A stretch of 63,535 nucleotides of DNA from Desulfuromonas sp. (GCA_002869685.1 PKUE01000054.1:1-63535); one strand, 5' to 3'; counted from the stretch's first letter, positions 35,746 to 45,133 are shown. The notes: a model not told the origin generated them from the sequence alone. Numbers and translations are program-made.

Positions 35746-36684
35746 ATGAACTACGCACGTCTCTCGACCATCACGGCTATTGCGGCAACATTGCTGTTGT
35801 GTGCCGCCACCCAACTGTGGGCTGGCGCCTGGACCATGCCCCAGGGGAAACTTTACACTCGTCTGGCGTACAGCGAGTATGAATCCAATCGCTATTTCAA
35901 TGAAAATGGCACCACCCATGATTATTCGCCCAATGAAGCCTTCAAAGCGCTGTCACGTGGGACACTGCCCCGTGAATTTGATTACGATGAACAAACCTGG
36001 TCGTTCTACTCTGAATACGGTCTGATTGACAACCTGACCCTGATTGGCTCCTTTGATTACAAAGAAGCCGAGTGGACCTATCAGGCAGGGATTGGCACCT
36101 CCAGTCCGACGGTGGATAAAACAGCAAAAACATCCGGCCTGGCAGATATCAACCTCGGTCTGCGCTACCGCTTGCTGCAAACACAGAGCGGCGTTCTGTC
36201 ACTGCAGGCTCTGTATAAAACCGGCGAAGCGTATGATGAGAAGGATAAAGATATGGGAACCGACATCCAACTGGGTGACGGTCAGGACGACTTCGACCTG
36301 CGTATCCAATATGGTCAATCCCTGTACCCTCTGATCCCCGGCTACTGCAACGTTGAAGCCGGTTATCGCTGGCGGACCCAGGAATATTCCGATCAGTTCC
36401 GTTACCTGCTCGAAGCGGGCGTCGATATCACCTCCGCCCTCTACGCCCGGACGAAACTGGATGGCTACGCCAGCTTTGGCAACGGTGACGATGCCCCGGA
36501 TGGTAAATACACCGAAATCGATTCCAACCCTTATGAATCTGATCTCGGCAAACTGGAACTGACCCTGGGTTACAAAATCACCAGCCAGTTTTCTGTAGAG
36601 GCCAGTTATTTCAACGAACTCTATGGTGCCAGCACCACTAAAGGTGAGACCTGGTCACTGGCCATTGCCGCAACCCTGTTTTAG
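35746..36684 (+). CDS. outer membrane beta-barrel protein
   Basis: 312 residues with a signal peptide ending LWAGA (about residue 26-28). The rest alternates aromatic and polar residues in short strands (GKLYTRLAYSEYESN, LIDNLTLIGSFDYKEAEW, GLRYRLLQ) and ends ETWSLAIAATLF with a terminal aromatic, the C-terminal signature of outer membrane barrels. GAGGAGG precedes the ATG. The divergent region upstream (35568-35745) has AT-rich repeats (GATAGATAGATAATCGA). It resembles MetA/'transporter' barrels, but no substrate can be named. Confidence 0.82.
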   Translation: MNYARLSTITAIAATLLLCAATQLWAGAWTMPQGKLYTRLAYSEYESNRYFNENGTTHDYSPNEAFKALSRGTLPREFDYDEQTWSFYSEYGLIDNLTLIGSFDYKEAEWTYQAGIGTSSPTVDKTAKTSGLADINLGLRYRLLQTQSGVLSLQALYKTGEAYDEKDKDMGTDIQLGDGQDDFDLRIQYGQSLYPLIPGYCNVEAGYRWRTQEYSDQFRYLLEAGVDITSALYARTKLDGYASFGNGDDAPDGKYTEIDSNPYESDLGKLELTLGYKITSQFSVEASYFNELYGASTTKGETWSLAIAATLF

Positions 36685-36734: not shown

Positions 36735-37508
36735 ATGCCAACCACTGCACACCGAACAATCGCACTGATCATCCCGGCTCGCAACGAGGCAGAATCGCTC
36801 CCCCAGGTTCTTAAAAATATCCCTCAGGGCATCCAGCGCATTATTGTTGTTGATAACGGGTCCACCGATTCAACCGCCCAGCTCGCCCGTTATCATGGCG
36901 CGACCGTCGTTTCACAGCCGCGCCCCGGTTATGGTCAGGCCTGTCTGGCAGGAATTGAGTTCCTGCAACAAGACCCACCGGATCTGCTGGCATTTGCCGA
37001 TGGTGATGGCAGTGACAACCACCGCGAGTTGACACGACTGATCGATATCCTGGAGAGCGAGCAACGTGATCTGGTTCTCGCGCAACGTATTCCTAAAAGT
37101 CGCGAGGCACTCAGTCCGCAACAACGCTTCGGCAACGGGCTGGCAACCTTGCTGATCAGCCTGATCTGGGGTGGCAATTACCAGGATCTCGGTCCTATGC
37201 GGATTATCCGCTGGGACGCGCTGCAAAAACTGGACATGAAAGACTGTAACTTCGGTTGGACCATCGAAATGCAGATCAAAGCCCTGCAACATCACTTGAG
37301 CATTCGGGAAATTCCAGTGACCTACCTGCCGCGGCTGGCAGGCGAGTCCAAGATAAGTCGCACAGTGAGCGGTGTCATCAAAGCGGGCAGTAAAATCCTC
37401 TGGGTGGTGGCTCGGGAAGCTTGGCGCAGCCGGACTCAGCTGTTTAATCGCCTACGGCGTAAAACGGATGTGGCCAGCAAAGCCAGCAAAGGTGCCAGCC
37501 AGATATAA
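36735..37508 (+). CDS. glycosyltransferase family 2 (polyprenyl-P-hexose synthase type)
   Basis: 257 residues. Starts with IALIIPARNEAESLPQVLKN and IIVVDNGSTDST, with FADGDGSDN as the DxD site and YLPRLAGESKISRTVSG as the usual acceptor-side loop. No C-terminal membrane pair. Such enzymes move a sugar from a nucleotide donor to polyprenyl phosphate. The last 73 bases overlap, tail to tail, the end of the convergent GT-C-like gene. Confidence 0.9.
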   Translation: MPTTAHRTIALIIPARNEAESLPQVLKNIPQGIQRIIVVDNGSTDSTAQLARYHGATVVSQPRPGYGQACLAGIEFLQQDPPDLLAFADGDGSDNHRELTRLIDILESEQRDLVLAQRIPKSREALSPQQRFGNGLATLLISLIWGGNYQDLGPMRIIRWDALQKLDMKDCNFGWTIEMQIKALQHHLSIREIPVTYLPRLAGESKISRTVSGVIKAGSKILWVVAREAWRSRTQLFNRLRRKTDVASKASKGASQI

Positions 37509-38779
37509 CCAGCAGTCCAGGGATCTTCCTGCCAGATTCCGGTCAGAAAATATTTTGCCACCACCTGATAGCTGAGCAACACGGCCCAACTCATAACGAT
37601 GGCCGCAGCTCTGGGAACCAGTGCGGTAAACGCGACCAGATAGAGGGCGTACCAGGGGTGCAGTGTCGGGGTCAGCAACAGAAAAAACAGCAATTGTGCG
37701 GACAACAGGGAGACCAGCACCGCCAGTGAACGCTGTCGGTGCTGGCACAATCGCAGCCAGCCCACCAGCAGCACGACAGCAAAAGTGCTGGCCAGGATCA
37801 ACCGGGCCACATCGCCGGACTGAACAAAGGTGCGCAGCTGTTGGAAGGTAAAGCCGGAAAATTCCCAATGGCGTGAATAGGTGCCGAGCGTTTCAAGGCC
37901 ATGCAGAATTTGTGGACAGAACGGCAGTGTAAAGAACACCATGGTTGTCATACCGGCCAGAAAAAAGGTTCGCCGTTGTTCGCCTGGAACCATCAACAGG
38001 CAGAACGGAACAAAGATGACCGGAAACACTTTCACCAGGACCGCCATGGACAAGGCCACCCCGCTCCACAACCCGGCCCACCGACGGCCGGAGACAGCGG
38101 TCCACAGTGAAACTAAAACGAGAAAGACCGCCAGAATATCAATATGGGCGGAGGCCGCACATTCGACAATAACCAGGGGATGCCAGGCATAAAAGGCTAA
38201 CCACCAGAGAGGGCGGCCAAGACGTTGCAACAGCCGCCACAGAATAAAACAACTGCCCAGATCAATCATGATCAACAGCAGTTTATAAGCTATAAGATGC
38301 CCCGCAGCCAGCGCAAAAAACAGTTCCGCCACAGGGGGATACAGAGTAACCAGAGCGGGATGATTGATCTGGTTCTGCAAGATGGCCATCCGGGCCGAGT
38401 CCGCCACCGCCTGTTGCGGTGCCTGGGCATAGGGATTGACACCATGCAGAACATTCAGACCATCCCACAAATATCGATAGACATCGTCTGACAACTGTGG
38501 CGCTGCACTGACAAACAAGACCCGAAAGCAGGCCCCGGTCAGGAGTATCCACCATCCAACCCATTGCGGTGTCGATGTTGCCGGAACAACTAACAGTCCG
38601 GCCAGGATGGCAACAATGCTCCCGCTGACCAGCAAAAACTCGGGAATAAACAGACGCAGATCGTCACGACTTGCCAGAAAAAGATAGGAGAAACAAATAA
38701 TGACCACTGCGAAAAACACCGCCGTACTTACGGCCTTATCGCTCTTCGCCTGGGTTATGTTATTGTGGCTTATGCTCAT
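37436..38779 (-). CDS. polytopic GT-C/GT87-like glycosyltransferase
   Basis: About 447 residues with some eleven membrane helices. The periplasmic loop after the first pair has DDVYRYLWDGLNVLHGVNPYA, like mannosyl- or arabinosyl-type GT-C enzymes that take a polyprenyl-linked sugar. It fits the preceding polyprenyl-sugar synthase. The start is open: an ATG at 38779 (GGAAG upstream) lies inside the rhodanese gene on the other strand; a GTG further down would avoid most of that overlap. The tail overlaps the GT2 gene. Confidence 0.82.
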   Translation of the reverse strand: MSISHNNITQAKSDKAVSTAVFFAVVIICFSYLFLASRDDLRLFIPEFLLVSGSIVAILAGLLVVPATSTPQWVGWWILLTGACFRVLFVSAAPQLSDDVYRYLWDGLNVLHGVNPYAQAPQQAVADSARMAILQNQINHPALVTLYPPVAELFFALAAGHLIAYKLLLIMIDLGSCFILWRLLQRLGRPLWWLAFYAWHPLVIVECAASAHIDILAVFLVLVSLWTAVSGRRWAGLWSGVALSMAVLVKVFPVIFVPFCLLMVPGEQRRTFFLAGMTTMVFFTLPFCPQILHGLETLGTYSRHWEFSGFTFQQLRTFVQSGDVARLILASTFAVVLLVGWLRLCQHRQRSLAVLVSLLSAQLLFFLLLTPTLHPWYALYLVAFTALVPRAAAIVMSWAVLLSYQVVAKYFLTGIWQEDPWTAGYIWLAPLLALLATSVLRRRRLNS

Positions 38780-39581
38780 GACTTCCATTCAAACGGCTTC
38801 CGCCTTTTCCCTGCAGCGTCTCGACATTCAGCGCGGTGCGCAAACCCATGACAGCATGGTTGTCCTTGACGCCCGCCCTCAGGCACAATACCTGGCCGGG
38901 CACATCCCCGGAGCATTCAGTTTCAGCTGGGAGGACTATACCAGACCCGACAGTTACGGCGTCAACTACCGAATTTTTCCAGTCGCGGAACTCTGCTCGG
39001 CATTGGGTGCGTACGGTATTTCGGCACAAAGCACCGTATTGATCTACGGCGATGCCGATACCAGTTGGGGTGGTGAAGGCTGGCTGGCCTGGCTGTTCGC
39101 CTACCTTGGCCATCAAGGCCCGGTTTACCTGCTTGATGGAGGCATTCAGGCCTGGCAGGCTGCCCGACTACCGGTAGTGACTACACCGCCTGCCACAGTT
39201 GAAGCAGTTTCCTACACTGCCGACCTACAGCAACAACTGGCAATTTCCGCTCAACAGATTGCCGCACGCCAGGACCAGATCACGCTGGTTGACACCCGCA
39301 ATTACTGGCTGGAGTGGTTTCCCGGACATCTGCCTCAGGCCGTCCACCTGGACTGGAAAGAGTTCTATCAGGGTGACACGAAATCCCCCCTGGACGGTGA
39401 CGCATTGCGCCAGTTGCTCGCCAGCAAAGGCATTGATGTGAGCAAACCGGTTGTCTACTACTGTACCGGGGGAATTCGCTCCGGATACTGCTGGATGGTT
39501 CATGAGTTATCCGGGTTGCCTTCAGCAATCAATTTCGAGGGAGGCACTGAAGAGTGGGACGCCTACCGAAAGACCCCCTGA
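38700..39581 (+). CDS. exported two-domain rhodanese-like sulfurtransferase
   Basis: 293 residues with a membrane anchor or signal (about 8-35, SLFAWVMLLWLML). Two rhodanese domains: an inactive N-terminal one (VVLDARPQAQYLAGHIPGAF, near 54) and a C-terminal one with the active-site loop YYCTGGIRS near 257-265 (Cys). It would act in the periplasm on persulfide sulfur. AGGAG precedes the ATG. Stop and next start overlap (TGATG). A rhodanese, Fe-S reductase and TVP38 group suggests reduced-sulfur handling (inference). Confidence 0.86.
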   Translation: MTTAKNTAVLTALSLFAWVMLLWLMLMTSIQTASAFSLQRLDIQRGAQTHDSMVVLDARPQAQYLAGHIPGAFSFSWEDYTRPDSYGVNYRIFPVAELCSALGAYGISAQSTVLIYGDADTSWGGEGWLAWLFAYLGHQGPVYLLDGGIQAWQAARLPVVTTPPATVEAVSYTADLQQQLAISAQQIAARQDQITLVDTRNYWLEWFPGHLPQAVHLDWKEFYQGDTKSPLDGDALRQLLASKGIDVSKPVVYYCTGGIRSGYCWMVHELSGLPSAINFEGGTEEWDAYRKTP

Positions 39582-41443
39582 TGAACACGCTGACACAACC
39601 AGCCGATAGTGCCCGCTCCGGAACCTCGTCCGCCTGCCCGATGACCACGTCGGTCGACATAAGGGATCTGGAGATGCTCGTCGATGGCTGCACCGATTGC
39701 GGTGCCTGCATCAAACAGTGCTCTTTTCTGCAACGCCACGGCAGCCCTGCAGCAATCCAATTGCAGCATCGTGACGATCCAGAACTGGGCAAGATCGCTT
39801 TTTCCTGCAGCCTGTGCGGCTTATGCAATGTTATCTGTCCGGCCGAACTCAGCCTGGATCGCTACTTTCTGGCCATGCGCCGTCACTATGTCGACAGTCA
39901 TCCGCAACAACTCAAAAAATACGGAGGGCTGCGGTTCTATGAAACCCTCGGCACCTCAAAGTGGTTCAGCCACTATGCCTTGCCCGACCAATGCCGGGAA
40001 GTGTTCTTCCCCGGCTGTGCCCTGTCCGGCAGTCGCCCTCACCTGACCTGGGAGCTCTACCAGCACATGCGCTGTGACTCCCCCAGCCTCGGGCTGGTTC
40101 TCGACTGTTGCAGTAAACCCTCTCATGACCTTGGAGACCAGCAACGTTTTGAACGTAAATTGTTTCCGCTGATCGATTTTCTCGATCGCCATGGCATTCG
40201 GCAGGTGATCACAGCTTGTCCCAACTGCCACCAGGTGTTCAAACGCTACGCACCCCAGCTGCGCTGCCGTTCCGTCTATGAAGTCCTCAACCAGGGCCAG
40301 CTGCCGGAGCAGCCACAACGTCAGGGAACCGTTACCATCCACGATCCCTGCGTCAGTCGTATGGAGAGCGACATCCATGCTTCGGTACGCAACCTGATTG
40401 ACAAAGTGGGACTGGACTGTCAGGAGATGAAGAACTCCCGACGAACCGCCCTGTGTTGTGGAGAGGGGGGCAGCGTCATGGCGGAGGACCGGGAACTGGC
40501 TCTTTCCTGGCGAGAGCGGCGCGCTGAGCAGGCCGCTGAACGCCAGATCATCAGCTATTGCGCCGGCTGTGTCGATTTTCTGCGCCCAGTGGCATCAACA
40601 AGTCACGTGCTGGATCTGGTTTTCGACCCGCACAATGATTTAGGCCCTGAGCAGCAGAGTCCCGGTTCACTCAAACGCTATCGCAATCGGCTGCAACTGA
40701 AAAAACGCGCCCGAAAACAGATTCAATGCAAAACCTGCGGAGATCGAAGTATGACTACATCCCCCCCCACCCCGTCACGAAAGAAACGGTTCAGTCAGCT
40801 GCTATTGCTGAGCGGACTCATTGCCGCCATCGTCGCCCTGAAGATGACTGGCGCAGCAGATTATCTGCAACCGGAGAAACTGCGCGACTGGATCGCCGCC
40901 GCCGGCATCTGGGCTCCCGCTATTTTTATGTTGATCTATGCAGCGGCACCGGCGCTATTTCTCCCGGGACTGCCCCTGACCATTCTCGGCGGAATTCTTT
41001 TTGGTCAGGTATGGGGTGTGGTCTACACCATCACCGGCGCCACAGCCGGGGCGTGTATTGCATTTCTGGTCGCCCGCTATCTGGGCAGAGACTGGATTCG
41101 GGCTAAACTGACCGCACCACGCTGGCAAAAACTCGATGAAGATGTTGCCCGCAACGGCTGGAAAGTGGTCGCGTTTACCCGATTGATTCCACTGTTCCCC
41201 TTCAACCTGCTTAACTATGCGTTTGGTCTGACCAAGATCCGCTTCAGCCACTACGCGGTTACTTCGTTCATCTGCATGCTCCCGGCAACCATTGCCTTCA
41301 TTTCCCTGTCAAGCTCCCTTGGCGAACTGATCAAAGGACAGATCTCCAAGGAGTTCATCCTCGGTATTCTTCTGGTTGTCGCCCTATCCCTGCTGCCACT
41401 CTGGTGGAAAAAAAGGCAGGCCAAACAGCATGAAACATCATAA
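39581..41443 (+). CDS. fusion: Fe-S CCG oxidoreductase + TVP38/TMEM64 membrane domain
   Basis: 620 residues. First 370: a two-cluster ferredoxin part (CTDCGACIKQC, CSLCGLCNVICP) and two CCG domains (FPGCALSG...DCCSKPSH, HDPCVSR...LCCGEGGS), like GlpC or HdrD. Last 230: a TVP38/DedA-type domain with FLPGLPLTILGGILFG and RLIPLFPFNLLNYAFGLTKI. A linker CKTCGDRSM joins them. An internal ATG at 40751, preceded by GGAG at 8 nt, could start the membrane part separately. In other genomes the two are usually separate genes as far as I know. Role, perhaps electron transfer to sulfur at the membrane, is inference. Confidence 0.85.
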   Translation: MNTLTQPADSARSGTSSACPMTTSVDIRDLEMLVDGCTDCGACIKQCSFLQRHGSPAAIQLQHRDDPELGKIAFSCSLCGLCNVICPAELSLDRYFLAMRRHYVDSHPQQLKKYGGLRFYETLGTSKWFSHYALPDQCREVFFPGCALSGSRPHLTWELYQHMRCDSPSLGLVLDCCSKPSHDLGDQQRFERKLFPLIDFLDRHGIRQVITACPNCHQVFKRYAPQLRCRSVYEVLNQGQLPEQPQRQGTVTIHDPCVSRMESDIHASVRNLIDKVGLDCQEMKNSRRTALCCGEGGSVMAEDRELALSWRERRAEQAAERQIISYCAGCVDFLRPVASTSHVLDLVFDPHNDLGPEQQSPGSLKRYRNRLQLKKRARKQIQCKTCGDRSMTTSPPTPSRKKRFSQLLLLSGLIAAIVALKMTGAADYLQPEKLRDWIAAAGIWAPAIFMLIYAAAPALFLPGLPLTILGGILFGQVWGVVYTITGATAGACIAFLVARYLGRDWIRAKLTAPRWQKLDEDVARNGWKVVAFTRLIPLFPFNLLNYAFGLTKIRFSHYAVTSFICMLPATIAFISLSSSLGELIKGQISKEFILGILLVVALSLLPLWWKKRQAKQHETS

Positions 41444-41891
41444 CCTCGCAGCCTTGACTTTGCTGTGCTGCTGCCTGCTCTGCACGATGGCAGCGGCACA
41501 GCAACTCGAACTGGTGGCCAAAGATCCCGGCAGCTGGCAGGCCACTCCTGCCAAGGGACGGGCTCTGATCACTTTTTCACCGGACAGTGGACATTTCGAA
41601 CTGACTGCCAGCCACCTGCCGGCAGAGCAGGACTATGTCCTGGTGCAGCATCAAGACCGTGGTGATGGACATGGTTATATGATTTGTACGGTGACAACGA
41701 CGCGTCAGGGAACCATTCGGTTCAACGGCTCCTGGTCTCTCTGGGAAGGAAAAATCTGGCTGGTGCGGGCTGAAGATGTTCGGGGAGCGGCGGGGGATCA
41801 AACGCTGGATCAGCTCAAGGGGTGGCATCCTCGTCATTATCTGTTTGAGACGCGCCTTTTGACGGCGTCACACACCCCTGCGGTTTTTTAA
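41430..41891 (+). CDS. secreted protein of unknown function
   Basis: 153 residues with a Cys-rich signal peptide (LTLLCCCLLCTMAAAQQ, cleavage near residue 22). The mature part is small, beta-rich and contains HQDRGDGHGYMI and RFNGSWSLWEGKIWLV. No family recognised. The start overlaps the end of the fusion gene by 14 bases, so it is translationally coupled to it; the end overlaps the convergent Cys-rich gene by 77 bases. Confidence 0.68.
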   Translation: MKHHNLAALTLLCCCLLCTMAAAQQLELVAKDPGSWQATPAKGRALITFSPDSGHFELTASHLPAEQDYVLVQHQDRGDGHGYMICTVTTTRQGTIRFNGSWSLWEGKIWLVRAEDVRGAAGDQTLDQLKGWHPRHYLFETRLLTASHTPAVF

Positions 41892-42132
41892 GCAGGCCGC
41901 GGCGCACCATTTCCACATGCAGCGGGCAGCTGCAATAACACCCCCCACCGAAATCAATATAATAGCCGCACTTGACCTCTTGGGCGGTTTTTCCGGCCTG
42001 TATGGCAACAATCCGCCCATCAATAACCCGTTCAGAGACGGCACTGCAACAATACCCCTTCTTCAGGCATGAATAGCCACAGGGGCAGTTTACCGTTTTG
42101 GCCATCTCTCTTAGTTCATCGTAGGGCGACAT
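41815..42132 (-). CDS. Cys-rich small protein, metal-binding-like
   Basis: 105 residues with ten cysteines (16, 18, 22, 28, 29, 55, 65, 67, 69, 87) in CPCGYSCLKKGYCC and CYCSCPL. The pattern suggests Zn or Fe-S binding. Its last residues (PSKGASQTDNDEDATP) lie in the overlap with the convergent gene and look unstructured. Not recognised; probably cytosolic. Confidence 0.68.
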   Translation of the reverse strand: MSPYDELREMAKTVNCPCGYSCLKKGYCCSAVSERVIDGRIVAIQAGKTAQEVKCGYYIDFGGGCYCSCPLHVEMVRRGLLKKPQGCVTPSKGASQTDNDEDATP

Positions 42133-42319: not shown

Positions 42320-45133
42320 ATGATCACCACCGAATTGCCTCACGACCAGGATATCCATAAAATCAACAGTTACGGCAAAGAAAACCTTGAAGAAATTCTT
42401 CACGTCATAGCCGAAACAGTCAATCATCTTACCCAGCAAAACCGCTGTCGCATCTATCTTGAAGACCTGACCAGCGGCAGTTTATCCTGTGCCATCGCCA
42501 CGGGACTACACAGTGACGAGTTACAACTCAACAGTTTCCCGATTAACAGCAGTTCATTCCCGGTTTCGAGCGTTTACGCCAGTCAGGAAGAAGTAACTTT
42601 CGAAGATACCGGCAACTCCGCGCGCTACAATTTTGAACTGGAACGCCGCTGCCAGATCCTGTCCAGCTACATGATCCCCATCCTGTGTAACCACCGGGCC
42701 ATGGGCGTTTTATGTGTCGACAGCGGTCGCTATCAACAGATCCCTTCGCCAGAACGCCGCAGTGAGCTGGTGCGCTTCACCGCCCAGATTGCCACCACCC
42801 TCGATCAGGCGCGCAAATACCACCAGCAACTGCTGCTCGCCCGCCAGGTGGATGAACAGAAAAAACGCGAAGCGGCGTTCTCGATGATGAAATCGGCGGT
42901 GCGCCTGGTGGACAACCTGTCGCTGGCGTCGGTACTGATCCCCTCGGCCAAATCCGCCGACAGCGACGAAGAGGGGCTGCAAATTCTCGCATCCTATTCT
43001 CAGCAGCGCGATGACCGCAAAATCTACGAAGATGAGCAGCTGATCAGCCTGAGCAAAGGGGAGTCGCTGCTGTCACGCTACATTGCCAATAACGGCATCA
43101 TCATTGACGATCGTTTTCTGGCGCCGCTATACATCTCCAACCTTCAGGCCGAGGATCTGCAGAAACGTTATCTGACCGAACAGCTTGGTCTGCAATCCCT
43201 GTATGTCGTCCCCCGTTACGAAGCGAGTACCAAACGGATCATCTGTGTCGTCAATTACTATACCGACAAGAGCTATACTTTCACCGAGTTTGAACAACGC
43301 CTTCTTGAAGCGCACGCCGAAATGGCCGAGCGGGTTATTCAGGAGATCGGTGGCGAGCACATGGAGATCCAGGTCCTCGCGGAGATTAACGACCTGCTGC
43401 AGGAGCGTTTTGACGGCCTGCAACCGTTCCTGCACCGTGTCTTATCCAAAGCGACCGAGTTGATCGGAGCCGACACTGGCAGCATTGCAGTTGTGCGCGA
43501 GCAGGAAGATGGCCGTTGGCTACTGGTTGAAGATGCCTCAGGCAATCTGATCGGGGCCAAAAGTAAGGAATGGCGCAAAAAGAATATCCCGCCCATCCGC
43601 ATTGGTGCTTATGAGCTGCCGCCAGAACAACGCAGCCTGACCGGCTATGCCGCGCACAGCAGCCATAGCCAGCTCATCTCCAATACCGATGACATCAAAG
43701 ATCAGGGAGGTTTTTATCTCGACTTGACCAACAACATCAAAAGTGAGTTGGCCGTACCGGTCATCAGCGAGGAAAAAGTGTTGGCTGTCATCTGCCTCAA
43801 CAGTTTCCGCAGCTATTACTTCACCGAGGAACACAAACGGATTCTACAAATTGTCGGGCGAATGATTTCGCGTTATCTGGCCGACCTGCAGCAGATCGAG
43901 GCACTGACTGGCGAAGTCACGCACCTGCGTTCCGACGTCGGTTACCGCGACCCGAAAATTTCTTCCTACAAACTGGGCAACATCATTGGTAACTCGACGA
44001 AAGCCAAAGAGGTGGTGAAATTCATCCAGACCGTCACCCCACCCATTTTTTACCGGCTGGCTTCGTGGAATCAGAAGAATATTGAAGAAGCGACACTGGG
44101 GCTGCCGTCTATCCTTATCACCGGCGAAACCGGCAGCGGTAAGGAGTTTCTATTCAACAATATCTACTCGCGCCTCAACGAGATGTATCAAGCCCAGCTC
44201 AACCCGCGCAGTGAACTGCCAGTTAAAAAAAGTAACATTGCCGCGTATAGCGGAGAATTGACGTATTCAGAGCTTTTCGGCCACAAACGGGGCGCGTTTA
44301 CCGGCGCCCATACGGACCGCAAAGGGATTCTGGAAGAAGCCCACGGTGGCGTGGTCTTTCTCGACGAGATCGGCGATGCCGACCCCAAAACCCAGGTCCA
44401 GCTGTTACGCTTTCTCGATAATGGCGGCTTTGTCCGTCTGGGCGACAACACTACCCGCTATTCACGGGTCCTGCTCATCGCCGCCACCAACAAAAACCTG
44501 CATCAATTGATTAAAAAGGGATTGTTCCGCGAAGACCTTTACCATCGTCTTTCGGAATTGACGATGGAAGTGCCATCGTTGAACGAGCGCCGCGACGACA
44601 TTCCGGACCTGAGTATTCACTTTTTGGGGAAATTGTTCCGGGTGTATAAGCGCGCGGATGAAAGTAATGACCCACCGGTATTGAACGTCGCCGCCCAGCA
44701 GGTTCTCAAGGAGCATCACTACCAGGGCAACATGCGTGAATTGCGCTCCATTCTGCTGCGCGCTTTGTTTTTCCGCCAGGGCCGGGTGATTGGCCCTGAA
44801 GATATCCTGCGCGCATTGGCCAGTGCGCCAACGTCAGAAGAGAGCGCCCCCAAACGCAGCCTGACGGAAAGAACCGCCAATGAAATTTTCAACACCATCG
44901 TCAATGACCAGGCAGATTTCTGGACGGCGGTGTACACCCCTTATTCGAGCAATCAAATCTCGCGGGATGTGGTCGCGACCATCATCAAATTGGCCCGGGA
45001 GCGCGGAGCCACCAACATGCCACGCATCGCCGCCATGCTCAATGCCTGTGACACCCACAGTGAGGATGACAACGAACGTAAAACGTTTTATAAGTTCAAA
45101 AATTTTCTATACAAGACCATCCGTATCACCTGA
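42320..45133 (+). CDS. sigma54-dependent activator with three GAF-like domains
   Basis: 937 residues. Three GAF-type regions (about 25-165, 185-345, 365-525), then an AAA+ domain: Walker A GETGSGKE (near 603), the sigma54-contact loop GAFTGA (near 656), Walker B VVFLDEIGDADP, and LFREDLYHRL. The stretch before Walker A (TPPIFYRLASWNQ) is longer than usual. The C-terminus lacks a Fis-type helix-turn-helix; instead it has RDVVATIIKLARERGATNMPRIAAMLN, possibly a different DNA-binding helix pair. The ATG has AAGGCAG upstream. It probably binds a small molecule or senses redox and then activates sigma54 promoters; targets unknown. Confidence 0.88.
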   Translation: MITTELPHDQDIHKINSYGKENLEEILHVIAETVNHLTQQNRCRIYLEDLTSGSLSCAIATGLHSDELQLNSFPINSSSFPVSSVYASQEEVTFEDTGNSARYNFELERRCQILSSYMIPILCNHRAMGVLCVDSGRYQQIPSPERRSELVRFTAQIATTLDQARKYHQQLLLARQVDEQKKREAAFSMMKSAVRLVDNLSLASVLIPSAKSADSDEEGLQILASYSQQRDDRKIYEDEQLISLSKGESLLSRYIANNGIIIDDRFLAPLYISNLQAEDLQKRYLTEQLGLQSLYVVPRYEASTKRIICVVNYYTDKSYTFTEFEQRLLEAHAEMAERVIQEIGGEHMEIQVLAEINDLLQERFDGLQPFLHRVLSKATELIGADTGSIAVVREQEDGRWLLVEDASGNLIGAKSKEWRKKNIPPIRIGAYELPPEQRSLTGYAAHSSHSQLISNTDDIKDQGGFYLDLTNNIKSELAVPVISEEKVLAVICLNSFRSYYFTEEHKRILQIVGRMISRYLADLQQIEALTGEVTHLRSDVGYRDPKISSYKLGNIIGNSTKAKEVVKFIQTVTPPIFYRLASWNQKNIEEATLGLPSILITGETGSGKEFLFNNIYSRLNEMYQAQLNPRSELPVKKSNIAAYSGELTYSELFGHKRGAFTGAHTDRKGILEEAHGGVVFLDEIGDADPKTQVQLLRFLDNGGFVRLGDNTTRYSRVLLIAATNKNLHQLIKKGLFREDLYHRLSELTMEVPSLNERRDDIPDLSIHFLGKLFRVYKRADESNDPPVLNVAAQQVLKEHHYQGNMRELRSILLRALFFRQGRVIGPEDILRALASAPTSEESAPKRSLTERTANEIFNTIVNDQADFWTAVYTPYSSNQISRDVVATIIKLARERGATNMPRIAAMLNACDTHSEDDNERKTFYKFKNFLYKTIRIT

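Follow-up and report, generated by a model that had tools for sequence, protein, structure and literature searches.

What is the function of a protein in which a heterodisulfide reductase (Hdr)-like iron-sulfur module is joined to a TVP38-type (VTT) membrane domain? Bacterial VTT proteins of this type (COG0398) occur widely without an agreed function, and Hdr modules with membrane partners are already known in HdrDE, DsrMK and EtfD. The question is raised by a group of genes in a 63,535-nucleotide stretch of Desulfuromonas sp. DNA (GCA_002869685.1, PKUE01000054.1:1-63535), here called the window. An earlier note on this DNA had claimed that three coupled genes encode an exported sulfurtransferase, an Hdr-like protein fused to a TVP38 domain and a secreted protein, and had suggested a role in the handling of persulfide or polysulfide at the membrane. 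We have analyzed the block, its relatives and their neighboring genes.

A block of three translationally coupled genes

The three genes are present as claimed, at 38700-41891. A two-domain rhodanese of 293 aa with a signal-peptide-like N-terminus (38700..39581, + strand; Pfam 9e-29) is followed by a 620-aa fusion of an HdrD-like iron-sulfur module with a VTT (TVP38/YdjX-like) membrane domain (39581..41443, +), and then by a secreted protein of 153 aa (41430..41891, +). The genes are translationally coupled. The rhodanese stop codon and the fusion's ATG share bases (39579-39583, TGATG, in the context CTGATG), and the last 14 nt of the fusion gene overlap the start of the gene for the secreted protein. 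It is likely that the fusion begins at this ATG (39581) rather than at the upstream GTG (39554) that opens the longest reading frame.

Upstream of the block lie genes for an outer-membrane beta-barrel-like protein (35746..36684, +), with a marginal MtrB/PioB match (Pfam E 0.0025, below the cut-off), and for a GT2 glycosyltransferase resembling polyprenyl-phosphate-sugar synthases (36735..37508, +; Pfam and NCBIfam matches), which recurs beside the fusion. They are followed by a GT87 membrane glycosyltransferase gene (37436..38788, −; Pfam 3e-12) that is antisense and overlaps the genes on either side. The next gene downstream encodes a sigma-54 activator (42320..45133, +), assigned by NCBIfam as a 'GPMC system transcriptional regulator' with 1638 bits against a cut-off of 1200. 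The block and these flanking genes are found in the same order in four further genomes of the window's genus and in its family, a recurrence that places the block far beyond chance.

Some smaller features of the locus may be recorded here. The antisense GT87 gene overlaps the coding ends of GT2 and rhodanese by about 70-90 bp, and the alternating arrangement is kept in relatives and resembles a non-contiguous operon. A cysteine-rich reading frame of 105 aa (41815-42132, −) is convergent with the secreted-protein gene and overlaps its end; it is 74-83% identical across the genus, and matches no Pfam or NCBIfam family. The hemA/D/B, ccsB and aroC genes in the vicinity are housekeeping genes, and a scan for promoters and terminators gave no decisive signal.

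Domain organization of the fusion protein

Pfam recognizes Fer4_8/Fer4_17 at residues 34-91 (above cut-off), CCG at 251-331 and VTT_dom at 461-577 (E 2e-29). The N-terminal half contains two [4Fe-4S] motifs (39689..39838, +; Cys 37, 40, 43, 47 and 76, 79, 82, 86), followed by two five-cysteine CCG motifs, the first at 40016..40228 (+; Cys 146, 176, 177, 213, 216) and the second at 40349..40570 (+; Cys 257, 292, 293, 327, 330; Pfam CCG 5e-11). Pfam does not score the first CCG motif in the window protein, while one relative (L105) yields two CCG stretches. All 18 cluster cysteines, eight for the cubane clusters together with both five-cysteine sets, are invariant in an alignment of 55 fusion sequences. 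The textbook spacing of a CCG motif is C-x(31-39)-CC-x(35-36)-CxxC, and the spacings of 29/35 and 34/33 in the fusion fall slightly under this range.

The two halves are connected by a basic linker (40679..40753, +; YRNRLQLKKRARKQI...GDRSM), which in relatives takes the form YxNRLxLK...[ST]RER and is conserved over the domain boundary. The membrane domain (40784..41440, +; PF09335, 2e-29; COG0398/YdjX-like) contains no invariant histidine and no invariant cysteine in the 55 sequences. Residues 360-405, in the linker, include 15 Lys or Arg and a single Asp or Glu, which by the positive-inside rule places the Hdr half on the cytoplasmic side; inspection revealed no Tat or Sec signal ahead of the iron-sulfur part. 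We therefore infer that the Hdr half is probably cytoplasmic.

The fusion reading frame also contains an internal, in-frame GGAG-8nt-ATG at 40739-40753, where the VTT part begins. Seven proteins of the family to which the window's fusion belongs share a GGAG-plus-ATG arrangement, and the methionine is absent from this position in most other lineages. A separate VTT-only product initiated from the internal ATG is possible.

The modelled fusion has a pLDDT of 85, with the N-terminus and linker poorly modelled. The best structural match of the Hdr half is EtfD of M. smegmatis (9ojn; Z 18.9, 3.4 Å, 334 residues aligned), and comparison with HdrB (5odc_B; Z 15.8, 2.9 Å, 215 residues aligned) indicates an HdrB fold; the sequence matches HdrB and HdrC too. 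A structure search with the whole model returned no VTT match, although such a list can be filled by one domain. Which branch of the VTT proteins does the membrane half belong to? Its profile scores 136 bits on E. coli YdjX and 7 bits on YqjA, and hhalign gives 99.8% for YdjX, 99.3% for YdjZ and 3.9% for YqjA. By these profile comparisons the domain resembles YdjX, and not YqjA of the UndP-flippase type (COG0586).

The putative exported rhodanese and the secreted protein

The rhodanese is a tandem PF00581 protein, with two stretches recognized by Pfam. The active-site loop CTGGIRS is in the C-terminal domain and contributes Cys255, which is invariant in an alignment of nine orthologues; the corresponding loop of the N-terminal domain is without cysteine. 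The profile matches rhodanese and mercaptopyruvate sulfurtransferase (MST) structures, including 1uar (E 2.5e-24) and E. coli YnjE (3ipo, E 6e-12). By inspection the N-terminus is hydrophobic and signal-like, ending TASA-FS, and a strongly hydrophobic N-terminus is found in 48 of 54 fusion-adjacent rhodaneses. The protein probably resides in the periplasm.

The small secreted protein belongs to no Pfam or NCBIfam family. It is predicted to form a beta-sandwich for which the nearest structure is Cu,Zn-superoxide dismutase (Z 10.4, 2.9 Å, 104 residues aligned), a match at the level of fold only. An alignment of ten orthologues contains no invariant histidine, and hence no conserved histidine metal ligands. 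A PDB search by sequence gave no match, and neither did Foldseek at E 1e-3.

Recurrence of the fusion

A joint between two domains could result from a sequencing error, the alternative to which the earlier note had drawn attention. The full-length fusion is present in about 20 of 136 genomes of the order. We also scanned species-representative genomes; a contig scan queried with a single protein had given no matches, and a 13-sequence alignment query succeeded, returning 254 relatives. The best 80 of the 254 come from Thermodesulfobacteriota (Desulfuromonadales, Geobacteraceae, Desulfobacterales and others) and Nitrospirota, and in 77 of these 80 a single open frame runs through both domains. 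The three exceptions comprise one with two in-frame TAG codons (a MAG), a second in which a stop falls right where the alignment begins, and a third with a frameshift. Cultivable carriers of the fusion include Desulfuromusa kysingii DSM 7343, Malonomonas rubra DSM 5091, Oryzomonas japonica and Geomesophilobacter sediminis. With these open frames, the conserved linker, which is not expected from recent read-through, and the 18 conserved cluster cysteines, we reject a sequencing error or chance fusion. The survey of relatives that had been suggested has thus revealed wide recurrence, and the fusion is real and old.

Two observations concern individual genomes. In a MAG from the window's genus (L025, G009:C55) two in-frame TAG codons interrupt the fusion and contig ends divide it, its 3′ neighbors lying on another contig (L157); this reflects either decay or assembly error. 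We also considered selenocysteine in the Hdr gene and rejected it; the TGA codons in G031 and G045 lie at the margins of the matches, and the genes themselves are open.

Variant architectures

Are the parts also found apart? In one genome (L036, G055) the order is reversed, VTT preceding Hdr, directly downstream of an exported rhodanese. At three loci (L038, L039, L040) there are separate genes, in the order rhodanese, Hdr, a DUF3047-type secreted protein and VTT. Five genomes (L063-L067) contain an Hdr protein without VTT, followed by MauE/DoxX and an exported rhodanese; in most of these Hdr proteins the linker is of the RER type and one hydrophobic helix lies at the C-terminus. A MauE-rhodanese gene pair is also found near six fusion loci. 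The presence of MauE/DoxX in the place of VTT argues that lipid flipping is not a necessary function of the membrane part. The earlier note had regarded separation of the genes elsewhere, together with a lack of response to sulfur compounds, as weighing against its proposal. Formally such separation does occur, yet the separate parts mostly remain neighbors together with rhodanese, and this strengthens the link among them.

In more than a dozen relatives a further membrane region follows VTT, and these fusions reach about 800-900 aa. VTT is fused to a pyridine-nucleotide-disulfide oxidoreductase at L151, L152 and L156, and close relatives of the Hdr half are fused to an FAD/NAD module at L153 and L154 (NF045663, about 1000 bits). 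Thus each pair among flavin oxidoreductase, Hdr and VTT is fused somewhere, which suggests functional linkage rather than proving it. At L155 (G007:C2), in the window's genus, VTT is fused to a phospholipase-D-like protein.

Genes in the neighborhood of the fusion

At 79 loci we compared genes less than 2.5 kb from the fusion with those lying beyond 4.5 kb on the same contigs; the loci are mutually related, which makes the resulting p-values optimistic. Neighboring families were named by NCBIfam (YdjY NF040466, ArsS TIGR04167, SelD TIGR00476, YedF TIGR03527). Rhodanese makes up 54 of 436 near genes and 2 of 283 far genes (p 1e-10, about 20-fold enriched) and is found at 42 of the 79 loci. The remaining 37 lack a cluster-1 rhodanese over the same distance, in part because of contig ends and crude ORF calling. 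YdjY is also strongly enriched (30 near, 0 far; 29 of 79 loci), although none is found beside the window fusion. GT2 occurs 14 times near and never far (p 8e-4), and the outer-membrane barrel cluster 17 times near and twice far, standing beside 17-19 of the 79 fusions.

Enrichment is weak for ArsS (8 near, 0 far, p 0.018), which occurs in window-type operons at three loci (L089, L091, L133), and for SelD (6 loci near, 0 far, p 0.05). SelD is near-universal in the order, so that its co-occurrence with the fusion at the level of genomes is uninformative. An alkylmercury lyase (MerB)-like gene is close to the fusion in L076 (PF03243), and members of the same cluster are found in L081, L097 and L107.

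The contexts marked by the barrel and by YdjY are mutually exclusive, with no shared locus, and none of the 29 fusions in the YdjY context has a glycosyltransferase of the GT clusters nearby. Each context label requires three changes on a tree of 83 fusions. The barrel context, to which the window belongs, therefore accompanies the fusion in several lineages.

Comparison with known systems

The Hdr half shares with proteins of the HdrD/HdrB type (HdrD, DsrK, TmcB, EtfD) the succession of two ferredoxin-type [4Fe-4S] motifs and two five-cysteine CCG motifs, and its modelled fold matches theirs with Z 16-19. The window fusion nevertheless scores far under the cut-offs of the named NCBIfam Hdr equivalogs. 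In HdrDE and DsrMK the membrane partner (HdrE, DsrM) is a heme-b quinone-reactive subunit, whereas here it is a VTT domain without invariant histidine. Among NCBIfam families the Hdr half is matched best by NF045663 (pyridine nucleotide-disulfide oxidoreductase/dicluster-binding, 'near Sec'), with 224 bits over profile positions 310-667. This misses the 530-bit cut-off, the C-terminal half alone being aligned; the window fusion lacks the FAD/NAD part and has VTT added.

A COG0398 VTT domain is also joined to a redox module in proteins containing an FAD-dependent disulfide oxidoreductase; there the flavoprotein follows VTT, whereas here the iron-sulfur module precedes it. PF07992/PF02852 are the commonest fusion partners of COG0398 DedA proteins, whose function was left open, with lipid scrambling as a possibility (PMC10127716).

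In E. coli the genes ydjX (VTT), ydjY, ydjZ (VTT) and ynjE, encoding an exported rhodanese, occupy one neighborhood, with selD about 6 kb past ynjE; FNR activates ydjXYZ-ynjABCD and ynjE (PMC3688515). This stretch shares with the fusion loci a YdjX-like VTT, YdjY and an exported multi-domain rhodanese, but as separate genes and without an Hdr module. The fusion-adjacent YdjY proteins include a clear homolog of E. coli YdjY (33% identity, E 2e-36). The extHIJKLMNOPQS selenite/tellurite cluster of Geobacter likewise brings together a rhodanese and an outer-membrane porin-like protein (PMC5877670). The window rhodanese is outside the ExtH family (28 bits against a cut-off of 200), and the ext cluster has multiheme cytochromes and neither VTT nor Hdr.

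In the literature searched we found no description of a TVP38-heterodisulfide reductase fusion, and no paper associating TVP38 with ArsS. The building blocks are known; their combination as Hdr-VTT is undescribed within that literature.

A possible mechanism and its alternatives

The fusion and its rhodanese point to an undescribed membrane machine for sulfur or selenium compounds. Persulfide or polysulfide, the substrate proposed earlier, is plausible but too specific; the neighbors in relatives (SelD, YedF, ArsS, YdjY, MauE/DoxX and MerB-like) suggest broader handling of chalcogens or metalloids. Our preferred reading, to which we assign a probability of about 0.4, is a membrane-bound reductase that would take sulfane sulfur or selenium from the periplasmic rhodanese, pass it across the membrane through VTT and reduce it in the cytoplasm. 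The exported rhodanese would pick up periplasmic sulfane sulfur (or selenium) as a cysteine persulfide or perselenide. The VTT domain would convey either the chalcogen species or a small thiol that carries it across the inner membrane. In the cytoplasm the HdrD-like domain, which has two cubane and is predicted to have two non-cubane clusters, would then break the S-S or S-Se bond using electrons from a soluble donor, giving sulfide, selenide or thiol. This reading is favored by the intact fusions with their conserved linker and cluster cysteines, the Hdr-type fold, the enrichment of rhodanese, the variants with MauE/DoxX or reversed order, the three pairwise fusion types and the six loci with SelD nearby. 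Substrate, direction, electron donor and VTT as conduit are all assumed in this scheme. To our knowledge chalcogen transport has been shown for no VTT protein to date, and the suggestion that COG0398 proteins may be lipid scramblases (PMC10127716) stands against a chalcogen conduit. The 37 loci with no cluster-1 rhodanese nearby, and the Geobacteraceae rhodaneses without the catalytic cysteine that are described below, also weigh against this reading. A stronger form, in which VTT is a dedicated translocator of persulfide, perselenide or a similar chalcogen species, mechanically coupled to the non-cubane-cluster reductase, and sulfide or selenide is delivered inside, seems to us doubtful; if true, it would give bacterial COG0398/TVP38 proteins a defined role for the first time, among them YdjX/YdjZ of E. 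coli, with YnjE.

How do other explanations compare? The glycosyltransferases nearby (GT2, GT87, cellulose-synthase-like) raise the idea that VTT flips polyprenyl phosphate for them in lipid-carrier recycling, the Hdr half being regulatory or acting on an unrelated substrate. GT2 stands beside 14 fusions, its window member is close to polyprenyl-phosphate-sugar synthases, and other DedA proteins include UndP flippases (PMC10127716). We nonetheless consider this improbable, given that the VTT profile falls on the COG0398 side, that the YdjY-type fusions have no such glycosyltransferases, and that rhodanese and a disulfide-reductase-type fusion would be left unexplained. Still less probable is a quinone-linked Hdr, in which VTT replaces the diheme subunit of HdrDE or DsrMK and a cytoplasmic disulfide or trisulfide exchanges electrons with menaquinone. 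The best structural match is indeed EtfD, an Hdr-type module in a membrane-bound reductase. However, heme-linked electron transfer is disfavored because VTT has neither invariant histidine nor invariant cysteine and hence no heme ligands, and we know of no VTT protein that binds quinone.

Two further explanations keep closer to thiol and metalloid chemistry. If Hdr drove an outward thiol/disulfide relay through VTT or MauE, in the manner of DsbD, the module would keep the thiols of periplasmic rhodanese, YdjY and cytochrome maturation reduced. The five genomes with MauE/DoxX in place of VTT, the MauE-rhodanese pair at six fusion loci and a cysteine-rich stretch close to the YdjY C-terminus are in keeping with such export of reductant; the absence of an invariant cysteine for thiol carriage from VTT makes it unlikely. 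Alternatively the module may reduce or export thiol-bound arsenic, tellurium, mercury or selenium, as a variant of the VTT-disulfide oxidoreductases that adjoin ArsS in L151 and L152. The eight loci with ArsS nearby, three of them in window-type operons, and the four with a MerB-like neighbor favor detoxification of this kind. We regard it as rather unlikely, since the majority of fusion loci have no metalloid gene and none of ten genomes from the window's genus, the window's included, has an ArsS over the cut-off.

The occurrence of the Hdr-VTT fusion in both orders, frequently with a rhodanese that is probably exported, links COG0398 to sulfur or selenium redox chemistry. The partner set offers a testable route into what this large family of orphan membrane proteins does, and a lead on the orphan ydjXYZ/ynjE genes of E. 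coli. The hosts, of which many are sulfur-, sulfate- and metal-reducing, are relevant to the cycling of sulfur and selenium.

Rhodaneses of the Geobacteraceae-type loci

Fusions of the Geobacteraceae type (L093, L095, L088, L101, L112, L122, L132) adjoin exported single-domain rhodaneses in which serine takes the place of the catalytic cysteine. These proteins end in a C(D/E)CC(K/Q/A)P motif, a tail of the CDCCKP type, and are possibly a repurposed carrier of sulfur or metal.
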